DNA of 64,000 bases from contig NZ_VCNC01000002.1 in the NCBI RefSeq assembly GCF_006210265.1, positions 62,001 through 126,000 of the forward strand, given 5' to 3'. The notes beneath the pieces were generated by a model that worked only from the letters and a program-made list of their open reading frames with translations, had not been told where the DNA came from and made no database searches. How positions within the stretch are numbered: the first letter of the stretch is position 1; every line of letters starts with the position of its first letter. The stretch is from Desulfovibrio sp. UCD-KL4C (lineage in GTDB: Bacteria > Desulfobacterota > Desulfovibrionia > Desulfovibrionales > Desulfovibrionaceae). A program made the position numbers and the translations under genes. Shown here in pieces: positions 29,016-52,755 of the stretch.

Positions 29016-29723
29016 ATGAACAAAATACTTCTTATTGATGATGATCCAGAACTAGGAGAACTTTTAAATACATATCTTGGAGGAGAAGGGTATAGCGTAC
29101 AAACTGAATGTAACGCTACTAACGGTCTAAAGACATTCAATAATGACACTTTTGACTTGATTCTTCTTGATATTATTCTGCCGGACCTCAGTGGACTTAG
29201 CGTACTCGATCTCATTAGATCAAAATCACATATTCCAGTAATAATGCTTACGGGAAAAGGTGATGAGGTGGATAGGGTCGTTGGTTTGGAAATGGGAGCC
29301 GACGATTATATATGTAAACCTTTTCAGCTGCGTGAGCTGCTTGCTAGAATGCGTGCAGCGTTACGCAGATGTGCAATGGTTTCCGAAGATTCAACTCAGT
29401 CTGTTAGAACTAGTAGAGGAACGATAAAAGTCGGCGGAATAGAAGTTAATCTTGATTCTCAATCAATTCTTGTAGAAGGGGAAGAGACTCATTTCACTGC
29501 TGCTGAATTTAGTATTATTGAACACTTGGCTGTGAATTGTGGGAAATTAGTAGAGCGTGATGACCTTATGGAAATTGCCTTAGGTCGTACTGTGGATTTT
29601 GACGACTATGTGCTGAATGTTCATATGAGTAATTTACGGCGTAAAATAGGCGAGTCCGTAAGTATTAAGACAATTCGTGGTCGCGGATATATGATGACAG
29701 CAAAAAATATGGCTGGCGCATGA
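29016..29723 (+). CDS. OmpR-family response regulator
   Basis: 235 aa. Receiver domain with acidic pocket DDD at 8-10, the phosphorylated Asp52 in LILLDIILPDLSG, Thr in MLTGKG and Lys in CKPFQ. The C-terminal winged helix (VEGEETHFTAAEFSIIEHLAV through HMSNLRRKIGE, then IRGRGYMMT) is OmpR/PhoB-like. First gene of a four-gene operon, and its stop overlaps the receptor gene. Partner kinase is probably the last gene of the same operon. AGGAG ribosome binding site. Confidence 0.93.
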   Translation: MNKILLIDDDPELGELLNTYLGGEGYSVQTECNATNGLKTFNNDTFDLILLDIILPDLSGLSVLDLIRSKSHIPVIMLTGKGDEVDRVVGLEMGADDYICKPFQLRELLARMRAALRRCAMVSEDSTQSVRTSRGTIKVGGIEVNLDSQSILVEGEETHFTAAEFSIIEHLAVNCGKLVERDDLMEIALGRTVDFDDYVLNVHMSNLRRKIGESVSIKTIRGRGYMMTAKNMAGA

Positions 29724-31654
29724 TTTTTTCAAAGCAATTTTTTTTTAGTGTTTTCTTTTTCACCTTGATTCTAAACGGGGTGGTTACGCCGTGTTTAGCC
29801 CAGGAAAAAGAAACAAATAATCCGCAGCTTGAAAAACTTGAGCTTGAAGACCTGCTTGATGTTGAAGTTGTTTCTACGACACGGCGGAAGCAATCATTAG
29901 AAAATATTGCCGGTTCTTACACAATCCTTACTGCTGAAGATATTAAAGCCAGCGGGGCGCTGTCTATTCCTGAAGCTCTTAAAGTTGTTCCAGGAGTCCT
30001 TGTAACACGTATGGACACAGATAAATGGTCTATCGGTATCCGCGGCTTTAATGGTATTTTTAATAGCAAACAGCTTATACTTATAGATAATCGCCCTATA
30101 ACCTCTCCTTATTATTCAGAAGTTATCTGGTCAAATCAAGATCTTCCAATCGAACTTGTCAAACGAATTGAAGTTGTCCGGGGACCATGGACTAGTCTCT
30201 GGGGGGCAGAATCTTTTAACGGCGTAATAAACATTATTACAAAATCTGCGAAAGAATTACAGGGAACTCAAAGCGTTTCAGTTGTAGGTAATGACATAGG
30301 TTCACAAATGATTCGTCAAGGCGGAAAACTCTCAGAGGATGGTTACTTTATGGTCTATGCTAAAGGTAGCTATGAACCAGGAAAATATTATACCGTCCGA
30401 GGAGAAAAGCATAAAGGTTCCAAAGATTTAGTTCAGGGAACTACTGGTTTCAGAGCAGATTGGCAGAATGTTTTTACTGATCAATTTACAATTCAGGGTG
30501 ATATTTCAACTTCAAGTATTACAGAGCAGTCTCCTCCAGGGAATCCTTTTTCTGCAGATAAAGAGAAAAAAGGTTATGGCGGTTATGTTCAGTTCACATG
30601 GGACAGAGCAACCGGTTTAAATTCAGGCATGCAGCTCAGAACCTCGTATTCAAGGTCTCAGGCAACTTTTGATGACCTTGAAGGCGTATCAAATACTATT
30701 GATACTGAATATATTTATTCAACTGATCAGATTGGAATGCATCTTTTTACCTTTGGCGTTGGAGGACGGTACTTTTGGGATGCATTTGAACAGGGGCGTC
30801 ATGTACGGGTTCGTAATGAAAAATTCAGCCGTCTGGACTTCAGTTCTTTTGCTCAAGACAAAATGACTCTCATCGAGGATAGTCTATTTCTGACGATCGG
30901 TCTTAAGATGGATTATTCAGAAGATGGAAATCTAGAGCCTCAATCTACCGCACGACTTCTTTATACCGCAGATGAGGATGAATACTGGATAGCCTTTTCT
31001 AAAGCAACAAGAGTTCCTAGCAATTGGGCCCATGAAGGTAGGTATGAAGTTAACTATAATGGGAACAAGTATGAAATTGATGCCTCAGGAAATCTTGATT
31101 CAGAAGAACTTACTTCAGTAGAGGCAGGGTATCGTAGAATCTTCAATGATGATTTAAAACTTGATCTTTCTTTATATTTTAATAGTTATGATAAGCTGAT
31201 AACACTAAATTATGATGCCGATACTCGTATTGCCACACCTGTAAGTGCTCTATGCGGATTGACTTATGGCACTGAAGTTGCCCTTGACTGGAAAGCTTTA
31301 CCACGGCTGACACTTCGTCCTTCTGTGAGTTTGTCAAATCAGGATTTCTCAAGTGCAACTTTGAATAATATTGGATTTTCACCTCCGCTTAACTGCCCAG
31401 TATACAATCTAAAAATACAAGCGTTAATTAATTTAGCGGAAAAATGGGATCTTGATCTTTTTGGTTCATATCTGAATACGGTGGATAACAAAGATCTTTC
31501 TACCGGATTTGGAGTAGATGCTCGTCTTGCATGGCATCCTGCTGATAATCTTTCGCTTGAACTTATTGGTTCAAGTCTTCTTAGTCAAATTAATGAAGGT
31601 GACTTCGAGGCAACCGAACCTTCCTGTTCTTTGAGGGTCATATGGGACTTCTAG
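29720..31654 (+). CDS. TonB-dependent outer membrane receptor
   Basis: 644 aa. Signal peptide ending CLAQ, then a short N-terminal stretch with LEDLLDVEVVSTTRRKQ, the TonB-box-like region common to a subgroup of receptors. Plug domain about 60-170 (SIPEALKVVPGVLVTRM, RIEVVRGPWTSLWGAESFNGVINIITK), then the 22-strand barrel ending with an aromatic residue (LRVIWDF). The match to colicin/cobalamin-type receptors is general; the ligand is unknown. Its setting between a response regulator and YfiR/kinase genes is unusual and suggests a sensory role. Confidence 0.9.
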   Translation: MIFSKQFFFSVFFFTLILNGVVTPCLAQEKETNNPQLEKLELEDLLDVEVVSTTRRKQSLENIAGSYTILTAEDIKASGALSIPEALKVVPGVLVTRMDTDKWSIGIRGFNGIFNSKQLILIDNRPITSPYYSEVIWSNQDLPIELVKRIEVVRGPWTSLWGAESFNGVINIITKSAKELQGTQSVSVVGNDIGSQMIRQGGKLSEDGYFMVYAKGSYEPGKYYTVRGEKHKGSKDLVQGTTGFRADWQNVFTDQFTIQGDISTSSITEQSPPGNPFSADKEKKGYGGYVQFTWDRATGLNSGMQLRTSYSRSQATFDDLEGVSNTIDTEYIYSTDQIGMHLFTFGVGGRYFWDAFEQGRHVRVRNEKFSRLDFSSFAQDKMTLIEDSLFLTIGLKMDYSEDGNLEPQSTARLLYTADEDEYWIAFSKATRVPSNWAHEGRYEVNYNGNKYEIDASGNLDSEELTSVEAGYRRIFNDDLKLDLSLYFNSYDKLITLNYDADTRIATPVSALCGLTYGTEVALDWKALPRLTLRPSVSLSNQDFSSATLNNIGFSPPLNCPVYNLKIQALINLAEKWDLDLFGSYLNTVDNKDLSTGFGVDARLAWHPADNLSLELIGSSLLSQINEGDFEATEPSCSLRVIWDF

Positions 31655-32178
31655 GAAGGTGCAAAGTTTTAGCGGTTGTTATTGCCGTTTTTATTTTTTT
31701 TCATTCCTCGCTGGTTATTGCTGCGGATACTAAAATTACGGCTACTAAAGCACAGTTGCGTGCTTTATTTATTAAAAAAATACCTAAATATGTGCTTTGG
31801 CCTGAACAGAGTAACGTTAAAAAGAACGTGGAATATACAGTAGCAGCTATTGATAAAGAAGAATTGGCTCCATATTTTAGCAAGCTAGGGCCTTATAAAT
31901 TAGTACGGTGGCCTACTGACTCTTGCCATGTCCTTTTTATTGATAGCTTAAATCCTCGTGTAATTGCCGCAATTATTAAACAAGTACAAAATAAGCCTAT
32001 CCTGACAATTGGACAGAACTCTGATTTCCTGCGTATGGGAGGAATTATCAACCTTGTAGAGTCCGGTTCAAGAATGAAATTGCAAGTTAATATTTGCGCT
32101 GCCCACAAAGCAGGACTGTCTATCAGCTCAAAATTGCTTAAACTTTCTGAAATATTTTGCGGAGATCATTTGAAATGA
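31642..32178 (+). CDS. YfiR-like periplasmic protein (DUF4154)
   Basis: 178 aa. Signal peptide (CKVLAVVIAVFIFFHSSLVIAAD), then the YfiR fold: LFIKKIPKYVLWPEQ, CHVLFIDSL, PILTIGQNSDFLRMGGIINLVE, and a C-terminal AGLSISSKLLKLSEI. In Pseudomonas YfiR is a redox-sensitive periplasmic repressor of a membrane diguanylate cyclase. Here the partner is a CHASE8-type kinase encoded next. It overlaps the receptor gene by 13 bp and the kinase gene by 4 bp. Confidence 0.88.
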   Translation: MGLLGRCKVLAVVIAVFIFFHSSLVIAADTKITATKAQLRALFIKKIPKYVLWPEQSNVKKNVEYTVAAIDKEELAPYFSKLGPYKLVRWPTDSCHVLFIDSLNPRVIAAIIKQVQNKPILTIGQNSDFLRMGGIINLVESGSRMKLQVNICAAHKAGLSISSKLLKLSEIFCGDHLK

Positions 32179-34300: not shown

Positions 34301-34777
34301 TTGAAAAACAGATATACTCCTTTAACTTTAATCGTCGCTGTCTTAGTAATTGCGGCAGCATCTGGATTTCTTTTCGCTCCGCCAGTGGAGGAAAGTCCGG
34401 TTCGTGTTGTTATGGATAATAGTGGCGGAAGAGTTATTTTTTCCCACGCTAAGCATGTTGAAGATTTAGGTTATGATTGTGCTGATTGTCATCATGACAA
34501 TATCGGTCAAGATAAACCTTTAGCTTGTGTTACATGTCATCCCGTTGCGTTTGATAAAAAGTTCCGAAGTGAACATCAAAAGAATTTTCCTGACAAAAAA
34601 GCATGCTTGCGTTGTCATGATGAAGTTCCGACAGGTCCTCTAGCAAAAGAAGACAGGCCGGATACTGAGAATATTCCTTTGTTGTCAGATGCTTTTCATC
34701 AGCAGTGTATGGGATGCCATGAACAAGACGGTGGTCCTTATGGTGCCGATTCCTGCTACAAATGCCACGCGAGGTAG
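34301..34777 (+). CDS. Rnf-associated multiheme cytochrome c (five heme motifs)
   Basis: 158 aa. N-terminal signal or anchor (TPLTLIVAVLVIAAASGFLFAPP), then a cytochrome c3/c7-like chain with FSHAKH and five CxxCH motifs: CADCH, CVTCH, CLRCH, CMGCH, CYKCH. It starts at a TTG with AAGGA nine bases upstream and ends 5 nt before rnfC. In Desulfovibrio species such cytochromes are found with rnf and are thought to pass electrons between the periplasmic cytochrome pool and the Rnf complex. The heme count here is from the motifs only. Confidence 0.9.
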   Translation: MKNRYTPLTLIVAVLVIAAASGFLFAPPVEESPVRVVMDNSGGRVIFSHAKHVEDLGYDCADCHHDNIGQDKPLACVTCHPVAFDKKFRSEHQKNFPDKKACLRCHDEVPTGPLAKEDRPDTENIPLLSDAFHQQCMGCHEQDGGPYGADSCYKCHAR

Positions 34778-34782
34778 GTTAG

Positions 34783-35922
34783 ATGCTTAAGATTCACTAT
34801 TCACTCGAATCCGATGTCCAAAATATAATACACGATATTACCGTACCGTCTGAAATTAATATTCAGGTGCGTAATCTTGTCCTGAAAGCCAAAAAAGGAC
34901 AGAGCGTTGCCCGTGGCGATATGATTGCTGAACATCCGTCAAAGTTTGGCGGTGCATATCATACTTCTGTTTCCGGCAAGGCTACAAAAGTCAATTACCA
35001 TCACCTCACTATAAAGTGTGATCACGAACAGAATTCAGCTGAACCTGTTGATGTTAAATCTATGGGGCCAGGTAAGGATTTGCTGCGCACGTTGCAGGAG
35101 CTTGGTATTGATGTCGCCCCTCTTAGTTCACGGTGCGATCAGCTGGTTATTAACGGGTTAAATCCTGAGCCGGGCATTTTTGTAGCTGAACTGCTGCTTG
35201 AATGTGAAAATGATATTCTTGAAGCCGGATTGAATATTGTTAAGTCGTTTATTCATCCAGTGCATACAAAACTTGCAGTGGCTAAAAAAACTTCAGTGAC
35301 CCTTTCCGGAACAGAATCTGTTTTTATTAAACCTAAGTATCCTAACTCGCTTAATTCTCTTGTTATTAAAGCTGTCACCGGAAAAGAAACCTGTGATGAC
35401 ACTAAGATTATGAGCATCATGGATATCTATAATATTGGGCTTGTTGCGACGTCCGGTTTGCCTGTGACTGATACAATTATGACCATCAGTGGACAAAATT
35501 ATCGCGTTCCTTTGGGAACACCTATTCGTCATTTACTTAATGAATTGGATATGACTGTTAAATCCGGTGACAAAGTCGTTCTCGGTGGACCTTTCCGCGG
35601 AGAGGCTGTTTATAGTCTAGATGAAGGCGTGAAGAAAGACGATCATGGATTGTTTATTATTTCCGTTGGTCAATTTCCTGCAGTAGAAGATGTAACCTGT
35701 ATCAACTGCGGCGAATGCGTACTTAGTTGTCCGGCGAGAATCCTCCCTAATATGATCAGCCGTTATGCGGAATATGAAAGATTTGAAATGGCTGAGAAGT
35801 ATGACTTGCACAGCTGTTTTGAATGCGGTTTATGTTCCTTTAACTGTACGGTCAGACGACCTATTTTGCAGTATATACGCTTTGCCAAAGATCAGCTCAG
35901 GATCAGCGGTAATGCTGAATAG
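34783..35922 (+). CDS. rnfC: Rnf complex subunit RnfC
   Basis: 379 aa, shorter than many RnfC. Membrane-peripheral subunit with the NADH/flavin-binding-like fold and two [4Fe-4S] sites: CINCGECVLSCP and CFECGLCSFNC. The N-terminus contains RnfC barrel-sandwich sequence (GQSVARGDMIAEHP). The conserved glycine-rich NADH/FMN loop of longer RnfC proteins (GVGGAGFPTHVK-like) is not evident, so the flavin site may be altered. The RnfB fusion downstream could supply an alternative flavin module. Rnf couples ferredoxin oxidation to ion pumping. Confidence 0.9.
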   Translation: MLKIHYSLESDVQNIIHDITVPSEINIQVRNLVLKAKKGQSVARGDMIAEHPSKFGGAYHTSVSGKATKVNYHHLTIKCDHEQNSAEPVDVKSMGPGKDLLRTLQELGIDVAPLSSRCDQLVINGLNPEPGIFVAELLLECENDILEAGLNIVKSFIHPVHTKLAVAKKTSVTLSGTESVFIKPKYPNSLNSLVIKAVTGKETCDDTKIMSIMDIYNIGLVATSGLPVTDTIMTISGQNYRVPLGTPIRHLLNELDMTVKSGDKVVLGGPFRGEAVYSLDEGVKKDDHGLFIISVGQFPAVEDVTCINCGECVLSCPARILPNMISRYAEYERFEMAEKYDLHSCFECGLCSFNCTVRRPILQYIRFAKDQLRISGNAE

Positions 35923-35992
35923 TTTTAAAGTCATGGTACAAGTCACCGGATTTGCCGGTAAAATATACAAGTTTAGATTCAAGGGTTAAAAT

Positions 35993-36964
35993 ATGACTCC
36001 ACCAGTAATTAAAGCAATGTCGGACATTGCAGTCAGGCTCACGGTTTCGCCTGCTCCTCACTGGCGCAGCAGACGTACTTTGACGAAGATGATGCAGTAT
36101 CATCTTCTAGCTCTGCTGCCGGCAATGGTCATGGCTTTCAATATGTTCGGGCTGTCCGCACTTTCAACCATAGGTCTTGCCGGATCTGTGGCAATATTGA
36201 CTGAAGCTCTCTGCCTCAAAATGCAAGGGCGTGATATTAACGTAGATAATTTCACAGCATTATATGAAGGCATCCTTTTTGCCTTTCTTCTTCCGGCAAC
36301 CGCTCCATGGTGGGTTGTCTGTTTTGGAGCTGCTTTTACAATTGTAATGGGACGCACCGTATTTGGCGGATTCGGAACCAATCCGATCTGTGCACCACTG
36401 GTCGCCTGGGCATTCTGTCGTTTGTCATGGCCTGCCGCCATCGATATCGATATGAATCTTTCTCATTTCGCGATCAATGCCCCTTTGGATCAACTTAAGT
36501 TCTTCGGCTTAGAAAGCCTTGATCAGTTTAATTATACTGACCTTTTCCTCGGACATCAGCTTGGTGGTCTTGGATCTTCACAGATAATTGCACTGCTTGC
36601 AGGTGGAATTTTCCTTATTGCAACCGGATGGGTGAGGGTTTTCATTCCTGCCGCCTTCCTGATCGGTGTAACTGTAACATCCGGTGTTTTCTGGATGATT
36701 GATCCTGAAGTCTACGCCAATCCTTTGTTTCATTTACTGACAGGCTCAGTGATGTTCGGAGCTTTCTTTTTGGCTCCTGATGTTTCTTCCAGTCCTGTAG
36801 GCAAAATTCCGCAGCTCCTATTCGGCCTAATTGCCGGAGCCATGGTTATAGTTATTCGGGTCTACGGCGTTTATCCTGACGGTGTGCCTTTTGCCATAAT
36901 GGTGGCAAATCTGCTTACACCATTGCTTGACAGGGTACGTCCGAAACCATTTGGAGGCAGATAA
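35993..36964 (+). CDS. rnfD: Rnf complex subunit RnfD
   Basis: 323 aa polytopic membrane protein of the NqrB/RnfD family, with about eight to ten hydrophobic helices. Family sequences: ALLPAMVMAFNMFG, VVCFGAAFTIVMGRTVFGGFGTNPICAPLVAWAF, and LTGSVMFGAFFLAPDVSSSPVG. The region expected to hold the covalently bound FMN threonine reads AINAPLDQLKF, without a clear Thr. It begins 70 bp after rnfC. Confidence 0.92.
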   Translation: MTPPVIKAMSDIAVRLTVSPAPHWRSRRTLTKMMQYHLLALLPAMVMAFNMFGLSALSTIGLAGSVAILTEALCLKMQGRDINVDNFTALYEGILFAFLLPATAPWWVVCFGAAFTIVMGRTVFGGFGTNPICAPLVAWAFCRLSWPAAIDIDMNLSHFAINAPLDQLKFFGLESLDQFNYTDLFLGHQLGGLGSSQIIALLAGGIFLIATGWVRVFIPAAFLIGVTVTSGVFWMIDPEVYANPLFHLLTGSVMFGAFFLAPDVSSSPVGKIPQLLFGLIAGAMVIVIRVYGVYPDGVPFAIMVANLLTPLLDRVRPKPFGGR

Positions 36965-36967
36965 ATC

Positions 36968-37537
36968 ATGCGTGAAATACTTTATATGCTTGTGGTCCTT
37001 TCTGTTATCTGTGCTTCTTCCGGAGCTCTGCTTGTTAATTTGAAGCAGGCTACCAAAGGGCAGATTGAGCAGCAGGTTCTCACTTATGTACAGGGGCCGG
37101 CACTTCTTTCTGTTCTTGAAAACAGGGACAATGACCCTATTACGGAACGTGTAAAGGTTAAGGATGTGACTGTGTTTCCGGCAATTAAAGACGGTAAACT
37201 TGTCGGTGTTGCCATTGAAACTTTCGCTCCGGGGTATTCCGGCAACATCGGAGTTATGGTTGGATTCGATGTGCAAAAGGATGAACTCCTCGGTATCGGT
37301 ATCACTACTCAGACTGAAACTCCTGGTCTTGGATCGCGTGTTGTGGATCCTGCTTTTACTAGCAAGTTCACAGCTCATGGTCTTGAATCCATGCAGCTGA
37401 CAGCTAAAGGCGGAGATATCGATGGTATTTCAGGTGCAACATATTCTTCTACCGGAACAGTTGATGCTGTCCGTAAGGCCATTGAAGTATATCAGTCTAT
37501 TAAGCCTGAGATCACTCAGATCTGGCAGAAGTCATAA
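36968..37537 (+). CDS. rnfG: Rnf complex subunit RnfG
   Basis: 189 aa. One N-terminal membrane helix, then a periplasmic FMN-binding domain with the covalent FMN attachment motif SGATYSST (Thr) in IDGISGATYSSTGTV, and PGLGSRVVDPAFTSKF. FMN is expected to be attached by ApbE encoded at the end of the operon. GGAGG ribosome binding site overlaps the end of rnfD. Confidence 0.93.
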   Translation: MREILYMLVVLSVICASSGALLVNLKQATKGQIEQQVLTYVQGPALLSVLENRDNDPITERVKVKDVTVFPAIKDGKLVGVAIETFAPGYSGNIGVMVGFDVQKDELLGIGITTQTETPGLGSRVVDPAFTSKFTAHGLESMQLTAKGGDIDGISGATYSSTGTVDAVRKAIEVYQSIKPEITQIWQKS

Positions 37538-37546
37538 GGAGATTCC

Positions 37547-38242
37547 ATGAGCCGTATAGTCAAAGAATTTGTAAAGGGACTTTGGGCGGAACTGCCTCCT
37601 TTCAGAGTGCTTTTAGGGTTGTGTCCTACACTTGCCGTTACTTCCACAGCGGAAAACGGTTTAGGTATGGGGATAGCAGTTCTATCAGTTTTGACATTGT
37701 CCAATATGATCATTTCATGTCTTAGAAAAATAATTCCAGCGAAAGTACGTATCGCCTGTTTTATTGTAATTGCAGCGTCATTAGTTGTTGCTGTTGAATT
37801 GCTTATGCAGGCTTATGTCTATCCGCTTTACCTTAAACTTGGTATTTTTGTACCTCTTATTGTTGTTAACTGTCTTATTTTGGGACGTGCTGAAGCTTTT
37901 GCTTCCAAAAACGGAGTCGTTTTATCTATTGCGGATGCTCTCGGCATGGGAATCGGTTTTACCGCTTCTCTGACCTTTTTAGGCGCAATTCGTGAAATAC
38001 TGGGACACGGAACAATCTTCGGAAATCATATCATGTGGAGTTCTTTCCATCCTGCCGAATTGATGGGAAAAGCGCCTGGCGCATTTATCGGGTTGGGAAT
38101 AATTCTGGCTTCCATGAATGCTCTCAACAGATATCTGAGTCGTAGAAAAGGTGAAACTCCACCAGATGTTATGAATTCCGGTTGTGCTTCATGCGGAGCT
38201 TGCGGCGCATGCGGCGACATTAAAGACCTAAACTCCAAATAA
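37547..38242 (+). CDS. rnfE: Rnf complex subunit RnfE with cysteine-rich tail
   Basis: 231 aa, six-helix membrane subunit of the RnfA/RnfE/NqrD/NqrE family. Typical motifs: LGLCPTLAVT, PLIVVNCLILGRAEAFASKN, and SLTFLGAIREILGHG. In this family half-channel cysteines hold a membrane-embedded FeS centre (Cys in GLCPTLA and VNCLILG). The last 22 residues carry an unusual additional CxxCxxCxxC cluster (GCASCGACGACGD), on the side expected to be cytoplasmic. AAGGAG ribosome binding site. Confidence 0.93.
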   Translation: MSRIVKEFVKGLWAELPPFRVLLGLCPTLAVTSTAENGLGMGIAVLSVLTLSNMIISCLRKIIPAKVRIACFIVIAASLVVAVELLMQAYVYPLYLKLGIFVPLIVVNCLILGRAEAFASKNGVVLSIADALGMGIGFTASLTFLGAIREILGHGTIFGNHIMWSSFHPAELMGKAPGAFIGLGIILASMNALNRYLSRRKGETPPDVMNSGCASCGACGACGDIKDLNSK

Positions 38243-38250
38243 GATAAAGG

Positions 38251-38835
38251 TTGATTACAATGGAATACTTCCTGTTATTTATATCTGCTATTTTTATCAA
38301 TAACATCGTACTTGTTCAGTACCTTGGAACATGTCCTTTTATGGGAACTTCCAAGTCCACAGATGTTGCAATGGGAATGGGCGGAGCAGTTATATTTGTT
38401 ATTTTGATGTCTACGGCTCTCACTTGGCCTTTGCAACACTACGTACTCATTCCTTTTGGGCTTGAGTATCTGCAAACCATTGTTTTTATTTTGGTCATTG
38501 CATCACTTGTACAGTTTGTTGAGATGTTCCTTAAAAAGATCATCCCGCCGTTATATAAATCTCTGGGCCTTTTTCTGCCGCTGATCACCACCAACTGTGC
38601 GGTGCTTGGTGTGGCGATTATGGTTCAGCGTAGTGAATATTCATTCATGAAATCTATGATGTACGGACTTGCTTCAGGTATCGGTTTTCTGATTGCTTTA
38701 GTTATTATTTCGTCCATCCGTGAAAGAATGGATATTGCTCCGGTTCCGTATGTTTTCAGAGGCGTTCCGATCGCACTGATTATGGCTGGTATCATGTCAC
38801 TGGCGTTTTTCGCTTTTCAGGGAATGGCCGCTTAA
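38251..38835 (+). CDS. rnfA: Rnf complex subunit RnfA
   Basis: 194 aa, six membrane helices, homologous to RnfE with inverted topology. Conserved: FINNIVLVQYLGTCPFMG and LPLITTNCAVLGVAI, the two Cys regions that form the intramembrane FeS site with RnfE. Ends FFAFQGMAA. Placed between rnfE and rnfB, as in other Desulfovibrio-type operons. Confidence 0.94.
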   Translation: MITMEYFLLFISAIFINNIVLVQYLGTCPFMGTSKSTDVAMGMGGAVIFVILMSTALTWPLQHYVLIPFGLEYLQTIVFILVIASLVQFVEMFLKKIIPPLYKSLGLFLPLITTNCAVLGVAIMVQRSEYSFMKSMMYGLASGIGFLIALVIISSIRERMDIAPVPYVFRGVPIALIMAGIMSLAFFAFQGMAA

Positions 38836-38859
38836 ACGGACAATTGAGGAGATATTAAA

Positions 38860-40974
38860 ATGGTGACTTCTTCTATTCTGGTTTTATTTTTACTAGGTCT
38901 GACTGCCGCAGCGATTCTGGCTGCAGCTTCAAAAGTTCTGCACGTGGAGGAAGATCCGCGTATTGCAAAAGTTGAAGGATGCTTCCCCGGTGCCAACTGT
39001 GGTGGTTGTGGATATCCGGGATGCTCTGCTGCAGCTGGTGCAATTGTTGAAGGCAAAGCTTCTCCTGAAGTATGTGTTGCAGGTGGAGCTGAAATCGCTG
39101 AAAACATCGCCGCAATTATGGGCGTAGAAGCTGCTTTTAAAGAACCTAAGGTTGCAAATAATATTTGTACCGGTGGTTCACGTGCAAATTTGTTGTTTGA
39201 ATACGAAGGCGTTGAAGATTGCCGTGCTGAAGCATTGCTTTACGGCGGTGAAAAGACTTGCGGTCTAGGTTGCATCGGTCTTGGGTCTTGCGTTAAAGTT
39301 TGTGGTTTTGATGCCATACGTCTTAATGAAGACGGTATTCCTGTAGTTGACATGAACGCATGCCGTTCCTGCGGCAAGTGTGCTGATGTTTGTCCTACCG
39401 GAGCTATCCGTATCAGTGGTATGACTATGGACTTATTGCACCTTAATCAGATTGACGATTGTCTGGCCCCTTGTATGCAGAAGTGCCCGGCTCAGATAGA
39501 CGTTCGTACATATATTAATCAGATGAAAAACGGTGATATGCGTGGCGCATTGTTGACCATGAAAGAGCGTAATCCGTTGCCATTAGCTGTCGGTCGTCTT
39601 TGTCCTGCTCCGTGTGAAACTATTTGCCGTCGTAATATTGCGGATGATGGTGTTGCAATTCACACTTTGCATCGATTTGTCGCCGACTGGGAAATGAACT
39701 CAGGATCGCGTCTTAAACTTGATTGTAATCCTTCCACAGGCCATAAGGTTGCGATTATAGGTAGTGGTCCAGCAGGACTTTCCTGCGCTTATTTCTTGCG
39801 TCGCATCGGTCATGAGCCCGTTATTTTCGAGAAACGTGATCAAATCGGCGGCATGATGAAGGGTGTTATCCCTGAATATCGTCTACCTGCAAAAGTTGTT
39901 GACTGGGAAGTTCAGTCTATTCTTGACCTTGGCGTTGATGTTCATTCCGGAGTCGAATTCGGTAAAGATATTACTATCGAGAGTCTTGAGAAAGAAGGAT
40001 ATGAAGCAATCTTTATTGCAACCGGAGCATGGAAAGTTCCTACTCTTGAAATTGAAAATGCCGACGCTGAAGGTGTACTTGATGCCGTTACTTTCCTTGA
40101 GGAAGTAGGTAAATCTATCACAGATTTGAAAGGCAAAAGAGTCGTTGTTATCGGTGATACCAATACTGCTATGGATGTTGTGCGCAGCGCCGCTCGCCTT
40201 AATTGTGAAGTGACTTCTTTAGTCGGTTGTATTCAGCGTAAAATGTCTGCTAATAAAAGTGAAGCCATACGTGCGACTGAACTAGGCAGTGAACTTAAAT
40301 ATTTGACTAAACCTACTCGTATTATTGCTAAAGATGGAAAAGCCAGCGGCATTGAATATTGTGAAGTTCAGTATGATGATCCCAAGAAAGCTCTTGGAAC
40401 GCCTAAACCTGTTGAGGGTACTGAAACTGTAATAGATGCGGATATTATTATTTCTGCAACTACACGTATTATTGATACTGCTCCTTTTGAAGATAAAGAC
40501 GGTTCATCCATGTTTGCAGTAAGTAAAAAAACAGGTGGGCTTGATGCTGACAGCCTATCGCTTCAAACAAAACGTCCTAACGTCTTTGTCGGTGGCGAAG
40601 TCCACACCGGACGCAGCATTATTATTCAGGCTGTCGCTGATGGGCGAAGAGCAGCGCGCGGAATTCATCACTTTGTTACTGCCGGTGCTATCCCTAAACT
40701 TGAAAACCCACAGCTTCGTGTTATACCTGAATCCATTCTTAAAAATATGGATGTCACTTATACAATTCCTAGAATTAAAGTTCCTGAAATTACTATTGAG
40801 GAACGTAGGTCTACATTTAAAGAAGAAGTTAAAGGTTCCATTGTATATGAAGCAGCTCGTAAGGAAGGCAGTCGTTGCCTGCGTTGCGGACTTACTTGTT
40901 ATGACTCCGAAGCTGGAGCAGAATATGCTCAGGATGCAGATGTTAAACCATTTGCTGAATTGGGTAAGGAGTAA
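38860..40974 (+). CDS. rnfB: RnfB fused to a GltD-like FAD/NAD(P) oxidoreductase module
   Basis: 704 aa, more than twice the usual RnfB. Residues 1-25 form a membrane anchor. Residues 41-55 carry the RnfB Fe-S motif (C41, C47, C50, C55 in CFPGANCGGCGYPGC). A two-cluster ferredoxin follows (C134/138/144/148 and C168/171/174/178). From about 195 comes a glutamate-synthase-small-subunit-like part: CLAPCMQKCP, LCPAPCETICRR, the FAD loop VAIIGSGPAGLSCAY (301-306), an NAD(P) loop VVIGDTNTAMDVV, and a last CLRCGLTC. It could let NAD(P)H or FAD chemistry enter the Rnf complex directly. GGAG ribosome binding site. Confidence 0.92.
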   Translation: MVTSSILVLFLLGLTAAAILAAASKVLHVEEDPRIAKVEGCFPGANCGGCGYPGCSAAAGAIVEGKASPEVCVAGGAEIAENIAAIMGVEAAFKEPKVANNICTGGSRANLLFEYEGVEDCRAEALLYGGEKTCGLGCIGLGSCVKVCGFDAIRLNEDGIPVVDMNACRSCGKCADVCPTGAIRISGMTMDLLHLNQIDDCLAPCMQKCPAQIDVRTYINQMKNGDMRGALLTMKERNPLPLAVGRLCPAPCETICRRNIADDGVAIHTLHRFVADWEMNSGSRLKLDCNPSTGHKVAIIGSGPAGLSCAYFLRRIGHEPVIFEKRDQIGGMMKGVIPEYRLPAKVVDWEVQSILDLGVDVHSGVEFGKDITIESLEKEGYEAIFIATGAWKVPTLEIENADAEGVLDAVTFLEEVGKSITDLKGKRVVVIGDTNTAMDVVRSAARLNCEVTSLVGCIQRKMSANKSEAIRATELGSELKYLTKPTRIIAKDGKASGIEYCEVQYDDPKKALGTPKPVEGTETVIDADIIISATTRIIDTAPFEDKDGSSMFAVSKKTGGLDADSLSLQTKRPNVFVGGEVHTGRSIIIQAVADGRRAARGIHHFVTAGAIPKLENPQLRVIPESILKNMDVTYTIPRIKVPEITIEERRSTFKEEVKGSIVYEAARKEGSRCLRCGLTCYDSEAGAEYAQDADVKPFAELGKE

Positions 40975-40977
40975 ATC

Positions 40978-42030
40978 GTGTTTGGCTCCAGTTCTAGCAG
41001 ACGTTCTTTTATGGACGTTCTAGCTGCAACAGGAATAGGGAGCTCATTAGTATCCACTCCGGTTGCCGCCGCCATGCGCATAGCTAACGCTATGCGCATC
41101 GGTGACAGCCGTTATAAAATCTGTGAAACACGTTTTCTAATGGGAACCTATGTTTCCATAACGGCCTTGCACGAATCGAAAGACGTTGCAGAACACGCTA
41201 CTGCTATGGCTTTTGAAGAAATTGATCGTCTTTCTGCACTGTTTGATCGCCATAAATCAAATACGCCTGTTTCTGAATTGAACCGGACTGGCAAATTGAC
41301 AGATGTTGCTCCTGAACTTTTTTATGTTATGAAAAAAGCTCAAATTTTTAACAACTGTTCGAACGGTGCTTTCGATGCCACGGTTCTTCCTGTTGTAAAT
41401 ATGATGCGTAATCAGGCTAATCCAAGCGGTCATATTGATCTGAATAAAAGTGACTTGGACGAAGCCCTATCTCTTGTAGACTCGAAGGGATTGCAAATTT
41501 CAAATAGAAAAATAAGTTTTGATAAGCAGGGAATGGCTGTGACTCTTGATGGAATAGGCAAGGGCTTTATTGTTGACTCAGCCTCTGAAATTTTAGCTGC
41601 CAACGGGGTAACGAACCATCTTATTAATGCAGGTGGTGATATTCGTGCCGGAGGCGAACGTTCAAAAGGGCAACCTTGGATTATTGCTATCGAAGACCCA
41701 GCCAAGAAAGGCAATTATCCGGCAGTGATTAAGCTTAAGGATGCTGCAGTAGCCACTTCCGGAGGTTACGAAGTTTATTTTGATGCTGAAAAATTGCATC
41801 ACCATGTGATTGATCCGCGTACAGCTTTATCTCCGACTCAAAGTTTAAGCGTTTCTGTAACAGCTCGAACAGTTATGGAAGCAGATGCTCTTTCAACTTC
41901 AGCGTTTGTTATGGATTCTCAAAACGGTATTAATTTTGTTAATTCACAGAATAGTAATGAATGTTTGATAGTTAAATCATCAGGAGAGAAGTTGAGTTCT
42001 AAAAAATGGAATGGTCTGCTTAGATTTTAA
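40978..42030 (+). CDS. apbE: FAD:protein FMN transferase ApbE
   Basis: 350 aa. Attaches FMN covalently to RnfG-type (and RnfD-type) threonines. The N-terminus is Tat-like (SSSRRSFMDVLAATGIGSSL). Catalytic-domain motifs: ETRFLMGTYVSIT, FDATVLPVV, LDGIGKGFIVDSA, NAGGDIRAGG, and HHHVIDPRTAL. A GTG start 3 nt after the rnfB stop fits an operon. Residues 34-43 repeat MRIANAMRI, caused by an 11-bp inverted repeat in the DNA. Confidence 0.93.
   Translation: MFGSSSSRRSFMDVLAATGIGSSLVSTPVAAAMRIANAMRIGDSRYKICETRFLMGTYVSITALHESKDVAEHATAMAFEEIDRLSALFDRHKSNTPVSELNRTGKLTDVAPELFYVMKKAQIFNNCSNGAFDATVLPVVNMMRNQANPSGHIDLNKSDLDEALSLVDSKGLQISNRKISFDKQGMAVTLDGIGKGFIVDSASEILAANGVTNHLINAGGDIRAGGERSKGQPWIIAIEDPAKKGNYPAVIKLKDAAVATSGGYEVYFDAEKLHHHVIDPRTALSPTQSLSVSVTARTVMEADALSTSAFVMDSQNGINFVNSQNSNECLIVKSSGEKLSSKKWNGLLRF
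41074..41099. repeat. 11-bp inverted repeat inside apbE
   Basis: ATGCGCATAGC (41074-41084), TAAC, GCTATGCGCAT (41089-41099). It lies in the region encoding the signal-peptide cleavage end of ApbE. May be an insertion or a translational hairpin. Confidence 0.8.
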
Positions 42031-42373: not shown

Positions 42374-42884
42374 TTAAGCGGCCAGTTTTTCCCGGAATTC
42401 CACAGGGAAAAGCTGGCCGAGTCTTTTTTGAAATTGTTCAGTGCTATAAAAAGTTATATATTCTTTTATTTTGGAGATGGTTTCTTGTTCGTCAAAAAGT
42501 TCTTTTGTTGGAAAGGTTTCTGCCTTTAAATGGGAAAACACTGCTGCCTATACGTCCAAAAGTTCTACGTTTTTTACGAATAATTGACCGTCTTCCCATC
42601 TGCTTCATCAAGCGATAAACACGTTTATGGTTCACGCAAATTCCTTTCTTGCCTAGCGCGGCAGTCATTCTGCGGTATCCATAAATTGGATATTTACGAT
42701 GAATATTTCGCAGTTTTATTTCGAGTTCTTGATCGTCCGCAATTTTAGACGGTTCAGCACGGTTGAGCCATTTGTAGTAACTTGATTTTACCAAACCGGA
42801 AACACGAAATAGAATTGCCAACGAATGTTTAAATGACAATTCATGCATAATTGCAAAGAGATAGCTTAATCGTTCGCTCCCCAT
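42374..42884 (-). pseudogene. IS3-family transposase OrfB, internally deleted
   Basis: The N-terminal third is clear (FKHSLAILFRVSGLVKSSYYKW, then HRKYPIYGYRRMTAALGKKG, HTH and start of the integrase region). The true C-terminus is present in another frame: FSHLKAETFPTKELF, QKRLGQLFPVEFREKLAA and a TAA at 42374. The central part with the DDE catalytic residues is missing; the junction near 42550 shifts the frame, so the first frame stops at 42492. Normal length would be about 280 aa. Confidence 0.85.
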
Positions 42885-49710: not shown

Positions 49711-52700
49711 TTATGGTGTATCCAGCTCAGTTACTTTTTTTGCCTTATGGATATTAACACAGCTGGCCTTATATTCCGGAATGGTTGTGTTAGGATCTCC
49801 CACTGAAGGCGTGAGTCTATTGGTGGAGTCACCACATCCTGGAGTGGTCCAACCAAAGCAATAAGGCATGCCTATCTCGTGTATGATGCGACCATGGACC
49901 TTGAGAGGACGCATGCGCACAGTTACCATAGCAACGGCTTGGACCTTGCCTCTGATGCTCTCAACAACGATGACTTCTCCGTTCTTGATTCCTTTTTCCT
50001 TTGCCAGTTCCGGACTCATCTCAACGTAGAGCTGCGGCTCTGCTTCAAGGAGGTTAGGCACGTTGCGGGTTTCACCACCTCCGCACCAGTGTTCGGTCAG
50101 GCTGTATGTCGTGAGCACTATTGGAAACTTCGGATCGGCCGCTTTGGCTAGCACGTCCATATCACTGTCAGTGAATTTGTAGACCGGGCTGTTGAGCTGT
50201 TTTGAGAACAGATTGCTCTTAACTGGCGTTTCGACCGGTTCATAGTGTTCTGGGAAAGGACCGTCCTGTCTGCCCGGACCGAAGAGATGTCCCAGACCAT
50301 GCTGCTGCATGATGAAAGGATATTTACCCTTGCCGGTGGACATTGGTGGCCATCCGCCATCAGGTACGTCACCGATCCACTTGCCGTTTTTCCACTCGAT
50401 AACAGCTTTATCCGGGTTAAACGGTTTACCGTTAAGATCGACAGATGCACGGTTATAGAGAATACGACGATTTACAGGCCAGCACCATGACCAGTTGGGA
50501 TAAAGACCAATTTTTGCCTGCATTGGAGTTTGTTTCGGATCACGGCGAAGGCTTTTGTTTCCTTCTTCCTCAGTCCAGCTGCCACAGTAGAGCCAGTTCA
50601 GGCTGGATGTTGATCCGTCATCTGCAAGGTTAACAAAACTGGGCACTTGCTGTCCCTTTAAGTACTTTTTACCTTTAACGACTACGTCACGGGTAAAACG
50701 TCCATTGATGCGTTGGCACAAATCATCTGGATCAAACTTTTTAGGCCAGTCAAGTTTGAGTATAGGATCAGGGAAGGTTCCTTTTTCCTTAGCATAAAGT
50801 TCACGAACCTTATTCATGATTGGGATATACATTTCAGCAAATGGGCGTGTTTCATACTGAGGTGGTATGACCTGTCCATGCCAAAGCAGCCAGCGTCCTG
50901 AGTTGGTTACAGAACCTGATTTCTCCAGACGATGGGCAGAAGGCAACAGGAAGAACTCTGTTTTGACTTTTTTAGGATCAATATCAGGGCGATGCCAGTT
51001 GTCAGTTGTTTCGGTGTTATGCAATTCTGCACAGACTACCCAATCAAGCTTATCCATTGCTTTACGGATTTTGTTGGTATTGGGCACACTGTTCATGGGG
51101 TTGAGTCCCATAAAGAAACCACCAACCATTTCTCCACGATACATGCGGTCGAACATGAACAAATATGAGTAATCTTCGCCTTTCTCTACCTTAGGCAGGA
51201 GTTCGTAGCAAAATCCATTATCCTGAGTGGCGTTATCGCCGAACCAGCTTTTAAGCAGTGATGCAAAGTATTCCGGTTTATGTTGCCACCAGTTGGCAGA
51301 CTGCGGATCGGTGCTGACTGGCGTGTTAGCCTTATTGTATTTTTCGTAGCTAGACCAGTCTGCATTCGGCATCGCCATATAACCGGGCAGGATATGGTAG
51401 AGCAGTGCGTGGTCGGTGGAACCCTGTACATTTGGTTCACCGCGTAGTGCGTTGATTCCTCCGCCAGCTACACCTATGTTACCAAGAAGGAGCTGAATGA
51501 TACCTGAGGTACGGATATTCTGTACCCCAACCGTATGCTGGGTCCAACCTAGAGCATAAAGGATGGTTCCAGCTTTGGTTCCGGTACCTGTTGCAGCGAA
51601 GTTTTCGTATACTTTCATCAAGGTTTCTTCGGGAACGCCTGTGGTAGAGGCGACTTTATCCAAGGAATAACGAGAGTAGTGTTTTTTCAGTAGCTGGAAT
51701 ACGCAACGGGGATTTTTGAGAGATTTGTCACGCTTAGGCATACCTTTAGAGTCATATTCCAAAGCCCATTTGCTTTTATCGTAAGCACGCTTTTTGGGAT
51801 CGAATCCAGAGAATAGACCATCTTTGAAGTCGAAATCTTTGCCTACGATTAACGAAGCATTGGTGTATTCTACAACGTATTCGTTAAAATATTTCTTCTT
51901 TTCAATGATGTACTTTATCATGCCGCCAAGGAAGGGGATGTCAGTTCCAGATCTCAGGGGAACATGAAAATCGCAGCGTGCAGAGGTTCTGGAAAATTTG
52001 GGGTCAACGTGCATTACGGTTGCGCCATTATCCTTAGCTCTGAGCACCCATTTAAAAGAGATGGGGTGATGTTCCGCAGCGTTACTACCCATAATCAGAA
52101 TGGAGTCGGCATTCTTGATGTCTATCCAGTGGTTGGTCATGGCACCACGACCAAAACTTTCACCCAGTGCGGATACTGTGGAACTGTGGCATACGCGAGC
52201 CTGATGATCCATATGTACCACGCCAAGCCCTCTGGCAAATTGGTGGGTCAGCGCACATTCTTCGTTACTGGCATGAGATGTTCCCATCAGAAACATTGAT
52301 TCTAGACGATTGACCTGTTGTCCGGCTTTATTCTTGCTAATAAAATCCTTATCACGGGTCTCTTTTACCCGGTGGGCAATGCGATCAACCATCCAGTCCC
52401 AACTCTTTTCTTCCCATTTGTCGCTATATGGCGCGCGGTACATGGGTTTTTGCAGCCGATGGTGTGCAGTAGTCATGGTAAACATGGCTGCACCTTTGGC
52501 GCACAAGGAACCTTCGTTGATAGGATAGTCTGGATCACCTTCGACCCCTACTAATTTCCCGTTTTTTACATAGCCGATAGCAAAACAGCTAACGGAGCAG
52601 AATGGACAGACGGTAAAAACCTCCTTCGCTCCGTCGATTTTCAGGGTGGCAGCATAGCTTTTAATCGGAGTCAGACTTACACCGATTTGAGCCAGTGAAA

Positions 52701-52755
52701 GGCACATTGCTGACGAGGCTGTGAGCTTCAAAAATTTTCGGCGGTCACATTTCAT
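49711..52755 (-). CDS. fdhA: Formate dehydrogenase catalytic subunit, Cys-type
   Basis: 1014 aa molybdenum/tungsten bis-pterin oxidoreductase. Tat signal CDRRKFLKLTASSAMCLSLA. One [4Fe-4S] cluster: C50, C53, C57 and C85. The active-site ligand is Cys189 in DHQARVCHSSTV, encoded by TGC, where most Desulfovibrio homologues have selenocysteine; His190 follows. The C-terminal domain that binds the second pterin is present (TEHWCGGGETRNVPNLLEAEP, MPYCFGWTTPGCGDSTNRLT). Oxidises formate in the periplasm with FdhB. AAGGAGG ribosome binding site. Confidence 0.95.
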   Translation of the reverse strand: MKCDRRKFLKLTASSAMCLSLAQIGVSLTPIKSYAATLKIDGAKEVFTVCPFCSVSCFAIGYVKNGKLVGVEGDPDYPINEGSLCAKGAAMFTMTTAHHRLQKPMYRAPYSDKWEEKSWDWMVDRIAHRVKETRDKDFISKNKAGQQVNRLESMFLMGTSHASNEECALTHQFARGLGVVHMDHQARVCHSSTVSALGESFGRGAMTNHWIDIKNADSILIMGSNAAEHHPISFKWVLRAKDNGATVMHVDPKFSRTSARCDFHVPLRSGTDIPFLGGMIKYIIEKKKYFNEYVVEYTNASLIVGKDFDFKDGLFSGFDPKKRAYDKSKWALEYDSKGMPKRDKSLKNPRCVFQLLKKHYSRYSLDKVASTTGVPEETLMKVYENFAATGTGTKAGTILYALGWTQHTVGVQNIRTSGIIQLLLGNIGVAGGGINALRGEPNVQGSTDHALLYHILPGYMAMPNADWSSYEKYNKANTPVSTDPQSANWWQHKPEYFASLLKSWFGDNATQDNGFCYELLPKVEKGEDYSYLFMFDRMYRGEMVGGFFMGLNPMNSVPNTNKIRKAMDKLDWVVCAELHNTETTDNWHRPDIDPKKVKTEFFLLPSAHRLEKSGSVTNSGRWLLWHGQVIPPQYETRPFAEMYIPIMNKVRELYAKEKGTFPDPILKLDWPKKFDPDDLCQRINGRFTRDVVVKGKKYLKGQQVPSFVNLADDGSTSSLNWLYCGSWTEEEGNKSLRRDPKQTPMQAKIGLYPNWSWCWPVNRRILYNRASVDLNGKPFNPDKAVIEWKNGKWIGDVPDGGWPPMSTGKGKYPFIMQQHGLGHLFGPGRQDGPFPEHYEPVETPVKSNLFSKQLNSPVYKFTDSDMDVLAKAADPKFPIVLTTYSLTEHWCGGGETRNVPNLLEAEPQLYVEMSPELAKEKGIKNGEVIVVESIRGKVQAVAMVTVRMRPLKVHGRIIHEIGMPYCFGWTTPGCGDSTNRLTPSVGDPNTTIPEYKASCVNIHKAKKVTELDTP

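Follow-up and report, generated by a model that had tools for sequence, protein, structure and literature searches.

What does a flavoprotein do at the end of an Rnf subunit? The question is raised by an operon in a 64,000-nucleotide stretch of Desulfovibrio sp. UCD-KL4C DNA (contig NZ_VCNC01000002.1, positions 62,001 to 126,000; hereafter the window), in which the rnfB gene continues into a module resembling NfnB and GltD. A first-pass annotation, made from the letters of the window, had proposed that this fused head takes over the pyridine-nucleotide reaction from RnfC, so that the complex could use NADPH or perhaps bifurcate electrons. We found that the head has lost its NADP(H) signature and that RnfC and RnfD have lost the sites for flavin mononucleotide (FMN). 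The best explanation of the operon as a whole (34301-42030) is a cytochrome-linked Rnf pump with a rebuilt, non-NADPH head, to which we assign a probability of about 0.5; electrons are probably passed out to a cytochrome rather than to NAD. Coordinates are collected in Table 1, and loci (L) and genomes (G) carry the labels of our comparison.

A single frame joins RnfB to a flavoprotein head

The fused gene is one uninterrupted frame of 2115 bp (704 codons) on the forward strand. Behind a predicted N-terminal helix (residues 2-26), a domain search matched FeS (43-73), a two-cluster ferredoxin (about 138-184), Fer4_20 (202-281) and Pyr_redox_2 (296-594). By sequence, the RnfB part matched solved RnfBs, and from about residue 186 on the best solved relatives were NfnABC and Stn chains, followed by NfnB, DPYD and GltD. 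The modelled fold of the head was nearest to chains of NfnABC, StnC and NfnB (Z = 34.0, 32.8 and 31.7, respectively); the mean predicted local distance difference test score of this model was 63.4, and it was not used for statements about the nucleotide pocket. Of the 15 Cys in the RnfB part, all except Cys41 were conserved in 65/65 fused proteins. The contacts for flavin adenine dinucleotide (FAD), namely GxGxxG and the Arg of PEYRLP, were likewise present in 65/65, and the acid after strand 2 was Glu in 61 and Asp in 4. The window head carries both the FAD motif and the Fer4_20 Cys ligands of an NfnB/GltD-type module. The single frame, the Pfam matches and the conserved ligands confirm the annotated fusion of a complete RnfB to such a module and dispose of the worry that the FAD contacts might be missing.

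The other worry, that a frameshift or an assembly error had joined two genes, was excluded because full-length orthologues (80-100% identity) were found in 15/17 sampled same-genus genomes, own genome counted, a second fused protein of 49% identity is encoded in the same genome, and a contig named Salidesulfovibrio brasiliensis encodes a fused RnfB at 80% identity. Among 297 genomes sampled across the phylum, 47 had a match at E <= 1e-100; by our reading of the match table, a full-length fused frame is present in 32, and the rest match mainly in the flavoprotein part or only partially. The sample also contained relatives of about 600 aa with the ferredoxin and flavoprotein parts and without the RnfB membrane part (L034, L085-L088, L091). 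In addition, some rnfCDGEA operons had no rnfB within the stretch retrieved, and some fused rnfB genes lay apart from any such operon (L120, L128, L131 and L149-L153), the two situations partly coinciding in one genome.

The NADP(H) signature is lost from the window head

GxG and YRR were present together in 40/40 NADP-type heads and in the five solved relatives that were aligned. In the window clade this pair was found in 0/8 heads, the second Gly being Thr in 8/8 and YRR being lost in 8/8. The window head itself has GDTN where GGGN is expected and V-G-C where YRR is expected. In 15/15 same-genus species with both copies, the window-type copy lacked YRR and the paralogue had it; the second Gly of these window-type copies was Thr in 14 and Ser in one. 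The Asp of the FAD-side GGD motif was replaced by Glu in 8/8 heads of the window clade and in 11/17 of a second NADP-lost clade, compared with 0/40 heads that kept the signature. YRR is reported to bind the NADP phosphate in NfnB, and DsrL-2 proteins with YRR use NADP(H), whereas DsrL-1 proteins without it prefer or need NAD(H) (PMC7596348). Because both YRR and GxG are lost, use of NADPH by the window copy appears unlikely and this part of the earlier proposal is poorly supported; it may apply to the paralogue encoded in this genome, which keeps YRR. For the window head, NADH or a protein may serve as the donor, and we keep NADH use as a candidate.

Bifurcation is poorly supported as well. 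The residue at the FAD-proximal [4Fe-4S] cluster was His in 7/8 heads of the window clade (His271 in the window), Glu in one (L028) and Lys in 57/57 heads outside it. Electron-bifurcating NfnB has Glu at this position, and StnC, which has Lys, is non-bifurcating (PMC10482914). No second Nfn subunit is encoded in the operon, the rest of the genome not having been searched for an Nfn partner, and RnfC has no FMN loop (see below).

RnfC and RnfD have lost their flavin sites

We parsed 100 loci with an rnfC-like gene. The window RnfC retained 1/10 residues of the loop GxGVGGAxFPxxVK, compared with 10/10 in 20 canonical RnfCs, from which the loop columns were themselves defined. Its fold and both [4Fe-4S] ligand sets were kept (cluster Cys 8/8), and its model was nearest to solved RnfC (Z = 33.6; NqrA, 27.5). 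Among 46 fused operons, which include near-duplicates such as L048 and L116 (probably one genome), loop scores were 0-5/10 in 46/46, and the cluster Cys were 8/8 in 45, the exception (L038) being a broken frame. As a within-genome control, a PduS-like protein keeps the FMN loop, GAGGAGLPTHVK. The annotated absence of a flavin/NADH loop from RnfC was correct. The control is an RnfC-like, PduS-type protein at L215:6060-7388 (G000:C1), in a locus that looks microcompartment-like by eye; L118, with a loop score of 10/10, has no rnfD and also looks PduS-like.

In canonical RnfD the flavinylated Thr (T153 of C. tetanomorphum, T156 of A. woodii; PMC9588780, PMC11889175) sits in the motif D-x-x-[S/T]-x-A-T. 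When the window RnfD was aligned to 7zc6_D, T153 corresponded to A163, R130 to W139, E185 to S195 and S284 to P299, and the riboflavin-side Asn and Asp were kept; these pocket residues are those named by the structure papers and not by our alignment, and the correspondence was drawn by hand and letter-checked. In the derived clade, which includes the fused operons and unfused relatives, the FMN-pocket R130 was present in 0/54 RnfDs and E185 in 3/54, compared with 18/18 canonical RnfDs for each. A bare T stood in the threonine column in 3/41 fused rows, in none of them after Ala, and the A-T motif was kept in 21/86 rows, none of which belonged to the derived clade. The change in RnfD mentioned by the first-pass annotation is real and specific. 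As far as our searches show, loss of the covalent-FMN Thr and its pocket across the derived clade, read here from alignments, appears to be new.

The remaining redox sites are largely intact. The RnfA Cys pair was kept in 94/94 and the RnfE pair in 89/91 proteins, and the strict RnfG motif [STC]GA[TS] was present in 61/73 derived RnfGs, with AGAT in the two of the other twelve that were inspected. The window operon contains all six canonical subunits (ABCDGE), the RnfG covalent-FMN motif, the RnfA/E [2Fe-2S] Cys and the two RnfC [4Fe-4S] sites; it lacks the RnfC FMN/NADH loop and the RnfD covalent-FMN threonine. A Cys-rich tail of RnfE, which had been linked to the fusion, is also real. The link itself was rejected because CxxC-type tails also occur in unfused family members (not in L028); none was seen outside the family.

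Fusion did not cause the losses

The order of events was read from a core tree of concatenated RnfA, E, G and D from 86 operons (quick LG+G4, rooted on the canonical group), which left out L030, L032, L035 and L116 and whose sample holds operon-linked heads only. The fragments L139, L055 and L105 were excluded from the fused/unfused count, and L141 was excluded from the second tree for its long branch. State changes on the core tree numbered one for the RnfD threonine, two for the RnfC loop, two for the fused/unfused state and six for the cytochrome. In the basal unfused group L100-L104 the RnfD threonine was already absent, with RnfC loop scores of 4-5/10. The unfused operons L142, L144, L147 and L154-L158 had the same RnfC and RnfD losses as fused operons; because they are nested among fused relatives, they have probably lost the head secondarily. 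Since unfused relatives share the RnfD loss and the full or partial RnfC loss, we rejected fusion as the cause: the losses follow the whole clade, and it is unlikely that the fused module took over from RnfC in the way first supposed. A cytochrome gene was called in 50/65 derived operons of the core tree and in 0/21 others; a multiheme cytochrome gene stood beside rnfC in 36/46 fused operons.

Kept and lost heads occur in pairs

The paralogous operon of the same genome (L024, G000:C2:377418-379478, outside the window) contains a decaheme cytochrome gene, rnfCDGEA and the second fused rnfB. It shares the gene order and the RnfC and RnfD losses with the window operon and differs in having a decaheme rather than a pentaheme cytochrome and in keeping the NADP(H) signature (GGGSTA and YRR). 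By these motifs it appears the better candidate for the NADPH idea. The 16 kb parsed around it contained no match to ApbE.

Such pairs recur. All 27 genomes in which two full-length fused heads were found (17 in the window's family, 10 outside) held one kept and one lost head, though these are not 27 independent cases, given that the head tree shows two origins; in genomes with a single fused head, either kind occurs. The head tree was rooted on the canonical group and left out L030, L032, L035, L055 and heads without the membrane part. A single origin of NADP-lost heads was rejected by the approximately unbiased test (p = 1.1e-9; quick LG+G4 tree, NAD(P) domain omitted), a value that is only indicative, the tested group having been chosen after the sequences were seen. 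On this tree the signature appears to have been lost at least twice. Because the NADP state changes four times on the core tree and twice on the head tree, we read heads and cores as not always inherited together.

Two-head genomes outside the family were sought at E <= 1e-100, a threshold that could pass over a second head of greater divergence. The ten found have one derived-type RnfD core each: seven have a single RnfD/NqrB-family gene and three have a second, which is canonical (G218, L177) or NQR-like (G289 and G191, judged by length and a 40-41% RnfA neighbour only). In G332 a second RnfA match (44%) makes the single core less sure; its second head (L203), a partial match in the phylum search, reads as a lost head. 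G311 was not counted, since its one complete head is a lost one (L204) and a further head (L139) is present only in pieces. Because these ten genomes encode two heads and apparently one derived core, the heads may be interchangeable input modules on one pump. We offer only tentatively the wider picture, in which the cytochrome-linked Rnf of sulfate reducers and related bacteria, stripped of its RnfC and RnfD flavin sites, would carry two kinds of RnfB head, NADP(H)-competent and NADP(H)-lost, the split having arisen at least twice with a parallel Asp-to-Glu change. If it holds, Rnf would be a modular gate between the pools of ferredoxin and NADPH (possibly also NADH or another protein) and periplasmic cytochromes.

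Neighbours of stand-alone lost heads were annotated at L194, L195 and L196, with one gene each at L151 and L197. At L194 and L196, in the second lost clade, a NADP-lost fused RnfB directly adjoins, in the same orientation, NuoE-like, DRTGG and NuoF/HydB-like genes, possibly an NADH-fed or bifurcating module on a membrane RnfB.

Proposed electron path and rival explanations

In solved Rnf, electrons take a U-shaped path through RnfB, RnfA/E, RnfG, RnfD and RnfC (PMC11889175). In the window complex, their entry point would be the fused RnfB on the cytoplasmic side, with reduced ferredoxin as the most likely donor; the RnfA/E [2Fe-2S] site would take them across the membrane to the covalent FMN of RnfG on the periplasmic side, from which they would most likely leave to the pentaheme cytochrome. 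Since RnfD lacks its FMN site and RnfC its FMN/NADH site, the classical return leg from RnfG through RnfD-FMN and RnfC to NAD+ would be broken; because a multiheme cytochrome also comes first in the operon, RnfB to RnfA/E to RnfG to cytochrome is the simplest route, and we infer that ion pumping is coupled to it. The flavoprotein would originally have been a port for NADP(H), and the paralogous operon still appears to have one. The nucleotide site of the window copy would then have been rebuilt so that NADPH is no longer a substrate, and selection would have maintained the module for its FAD and Fe-S centres, its electron partner most likely being a protein carrier. An exit from RnfG to a cytochrome has been proposed for the cytochrome-associated Rnf of M. 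acetivorans, which does not reduce NAD(P) (PMC4023990), and is mentioned among the possibilities for D. vulgaris (PMC10920352). For two-subunit Rnf-like complexes that lack the RnfD threonine, unidirectional operation has been proposed (PMC11334425).

Several observations weigh against the cytochrome-linked pump with a non-NADPH head. A dinucleotide may still bind when Thr replaces the second Gly, a position at which some reductases have Ser, and the following Arg-Lys could bind phosphate. Within the window copy, conservation is lowest in the NAD(P) domain (mean identity 0.749), the paralogue being alike (0.752). The median dN/dS of this domain (the ratio of nonsynonymous to synonymous substitution rates) counts in favour of the proposal: it was 0.087 in window-type copies and 0.072 in paralogues, and on these values the rebuilt domain is not decaying, though dS was near saturation and only 67 and 45 of 105 pairs were usable. 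In the window the riboflavin-side RnfD residues and all RnfC cluster Cys are kept, and the RnfD/RnfC arm may still carry electrons, for instance with a non-covalent flavin. No cytochrome gene lies beside rnfC in 10/46 fused operons, of which three (L037, L050, L112) lie on loci that stop about 500 bases or less from rnfC and the other seven do not. Loss of the RnfC loop does not by itself imply a cytochrome exit, because the unfused loci L111, L115 and L140, outside the clade, have no cytochrome and loop scores of 2-3/10 with the RnfD site kept. Finally, fitness on ethanol, formate or H2 was reportedly unaffected in D. alaskensis mutants of the Rnf-linked decaheme cytochrome gene (PMC4841214).

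The rebuilt head might instead be an NADH port, so that the operon pair would give one NADPH-linked and one NADH-linked cytochrome Rnf. The retained Rossmann domain with its first Gly, the purifying selection on that domain and the DsrL precedent (NAD(H) without YRR, NADP(H) with it; PMC7596348) speak for this reading, which we nevertheless consider somewhat unlikely: GxG has changed too (Thr in 8/8 of the clade; Thr in 14 and Ser in one of the 15 species), the FAD-side Asp is Glu in 8/8, and the second lost clade includes heads with no recognisable dinucleotide motif (e.g. L125, L135, L137), so that loss of NADPH use there was not simply a switch to NADH. The original model, a head that takes over the pyridine-nucleotide chemistry with NADPH and perhaps bifurcates, seems improbable for the window copy. 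It agrees with the fold, nearest to NfnABC, StnC and NfnB, and with the kept FAD and Fe-S ligands, and it is plausible for the paralogue (G000:C2:377418), which retains GGGSTA and YRR. In the window, both YRR and GxG are lost, the operon has no Nfn partner, RnfC has no FMN loop, and His stands where non-bifurcating StnC has Lys (PMC10482914).

The unfused relatives that manage without a head (L142, L144, L147, L154-L158) would fit a view of the module as a structural leftover that takes no part in electron transfer. We think this quite improbable in view of the low dN/dS in every domain, the kept Fe-S and FAD ligands, and the Fer4_20 and C-terminal parts, in which mean identity exceeds that of the paralogue (0.956 vs 0.843 and 0.936 vs 0.707, respectively). 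We give very little credence to docking of NADP-lost heads on a soluble NADH module of the NuoEF/HydBC type, comparable to the pairing of StnAB with StnC. The gene neighbourhoods of L194 and L196 suggest it, but the NuoF iron-sulfur domain of the Stn/HydABC core (PF10589) had no match in the window's genome, for which we rejected a HydBC-type partner, and was absent from 13/15 two-copy genomes of the genus (own included), the other two giving one match below the cut-off and one full match.

Operon layout and neighbouring genes

The genes of the operon are tightly packed in the order cytochrome, rnfC, rnfD, rnfG, rnfE, rnfA, fused rnfB and apbE (Table 1). Just downstream lies a transposase-like fragment (42492-42884, reverse strand), which by eye we take to be of the IS3 type. 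Upstream, 29016-32175 holds genes for a response regulator, a TonB-dependent receptor (best match the TOL_0244 family, below cut-off) and a YfiR-like protein, ahead of a sensor-like gene. A formate dehydrogenase-N alpha subunit-type gene lies at 49711-52755 on the reverse strand (1326 bits; cut-off 814 bits).

Table 1. Features of the window Rnf operon and of its fused RnfB
Feature	Position	Strand	Evidence or remark
Pentaheme c-type cytochrome, first gene, proposed periplasmic electron exit	34301..34777	+	Cytochrom_CIII 8.8e-11; five CxxCH
RnfC, 379 aa, FMN/NADH loop lost	34783..35922	+	TIGR01945 153 bits, below 246-bit cut-off
RnfD, covalent-FMN Thr and FMN pocket lost	35993..36964	+	alignment to 7zc6_D
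RnfG with covalent-FMN motif SGAT	36968..37537	+	profile matches, motif scan
RnfE with Cys-rich C-terminal tail (about 38150-38242)	37547..38242	+	
RnfA	38251..38835	+	with RnfE keeps four Cys of in-membrane [2Fe-2S] site
RnfB fused to NfnB/GltD-type flavoprotein	38860..40974	+	704 aa; frame, Pfam, solved relatives, orthologues
RnfB part, residues 1-190	38860..39429	+	membrane helix, FeS, two-cluster ferredoxin
Fer4_20 two-cluster region, residues 191-290	39430..39729	+	Pfam, alignment
His271 at FAD-proximal cluster position	39670-39672	+	alignment
FAD GxGxxG, residues 301-306	39760..39777	+	alignment
Remodelled NAD(P) Rossmann motif GDTNTA, residues 432-437	40153..40170	+	NADP-type relatives: GGGNTA or similar
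V-G-C replacing NADP phosphate motif YRR, residues 455-457	40222..40230	+	alignment
Glu580 replacing Asp of FAD-side GGD motif	40597..40599	+	alignment
C-terminal three-Cys motif (673, 676, 680)	40876..40899	+	alignment
ApbE flavin transferase, last gene	40978..42030	+	Pfam ApbE 6.1e-71

Comparison with known systems

The observation behind the first-pass annotation is confirmed, its interpretation partly supported, and the system is known as a type. Fused RnfB is not new: the Tol2-type Rnf of Desulfobacula toluolica and Desulfococcus multivorans (Rnf2) is described with an RnfB of about 700 residues with NAD+-binding sites and an RnfC without the NADH and ligand-binding domains, its mode of action being stated as unknown (PMC5109826). 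The window operon shares the large RnfB with a putative nucleotide-binding part, the RnfC without an NADH domain and the cytochrome gene in the cluster. It differs in its NAD(P) site, where the Rossmann domain is present and GxG and YRR are lost; the section of PMC5109826 on large RnfB does not speak of a lost FMN site in RnfD. Many Desulfovibrionaceae are reported to have lost rnfB and to have an FAD-dependent oxidoreductase instead (PMC11434368); by our reading, these are the same operons and the oxidoreductase is the fused RnfB itself. The RnfB of D. vulgaris is listed at 30.9 kDa, i.e. unfused (PMC10920352). The new content, as far as our searches show, lies in the RnfD residue losses, the loss of the NADP(H) signature in the window head and its repeated paired occurrence, none of which we found in print in the open-licence literature.

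These results bear on how Rnf works in sulfate reducers. A non-classical mode was already published for the Tol2 type, the large-RnfB Rnf having been left awaiting experimental verification (PMC5109826), and attempts to assay ferredoxin:NAD+ coupling in D. alaskensis vesicles reportedly failed (PMC4841214). A possible reason at the level of residues is that neither RnfC nor RnfD has an FMN site, in which case a cytochrome, not NAD+, would be the acceptor. The paired heads provide a ready comparison in one organism, with the same gene order and with or without the NADP(H) signature.

The window module resembles the GltD-type NADPH modules of StnC, NfnABC and NfnB in fold, Fer4_20 clusters and FAD site, and differs in being fused to a membrane RnfB, in the loss of the NADP(H) signature and in His at the FAD-proximal cluster. 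Na+-NQR offers a parallel in that an FAD input module was recruited and the RnfC/NqrA subunit lost its flavin site (PMC4014512); its module is unrelated, and the window RnfC keeps its cluster Cys. The same genome probably encodes a Na+-NQR of its own, judging by genes matching the RnfA, E, G, D and C models at G000:C3:518000-532000 (L025), where the 399-aa NqrB-like D protein keeps SGATPL. The Rnf of Methanosarcina acetivorans is archaeal and is described as having no NAD(P) reaction, and the passages of PMC4023990 that describe it mention no fused RnfB; it shares with the window operon a multiheme cytochrome gene in the operon and RnfG as the proposed exit for electrons.

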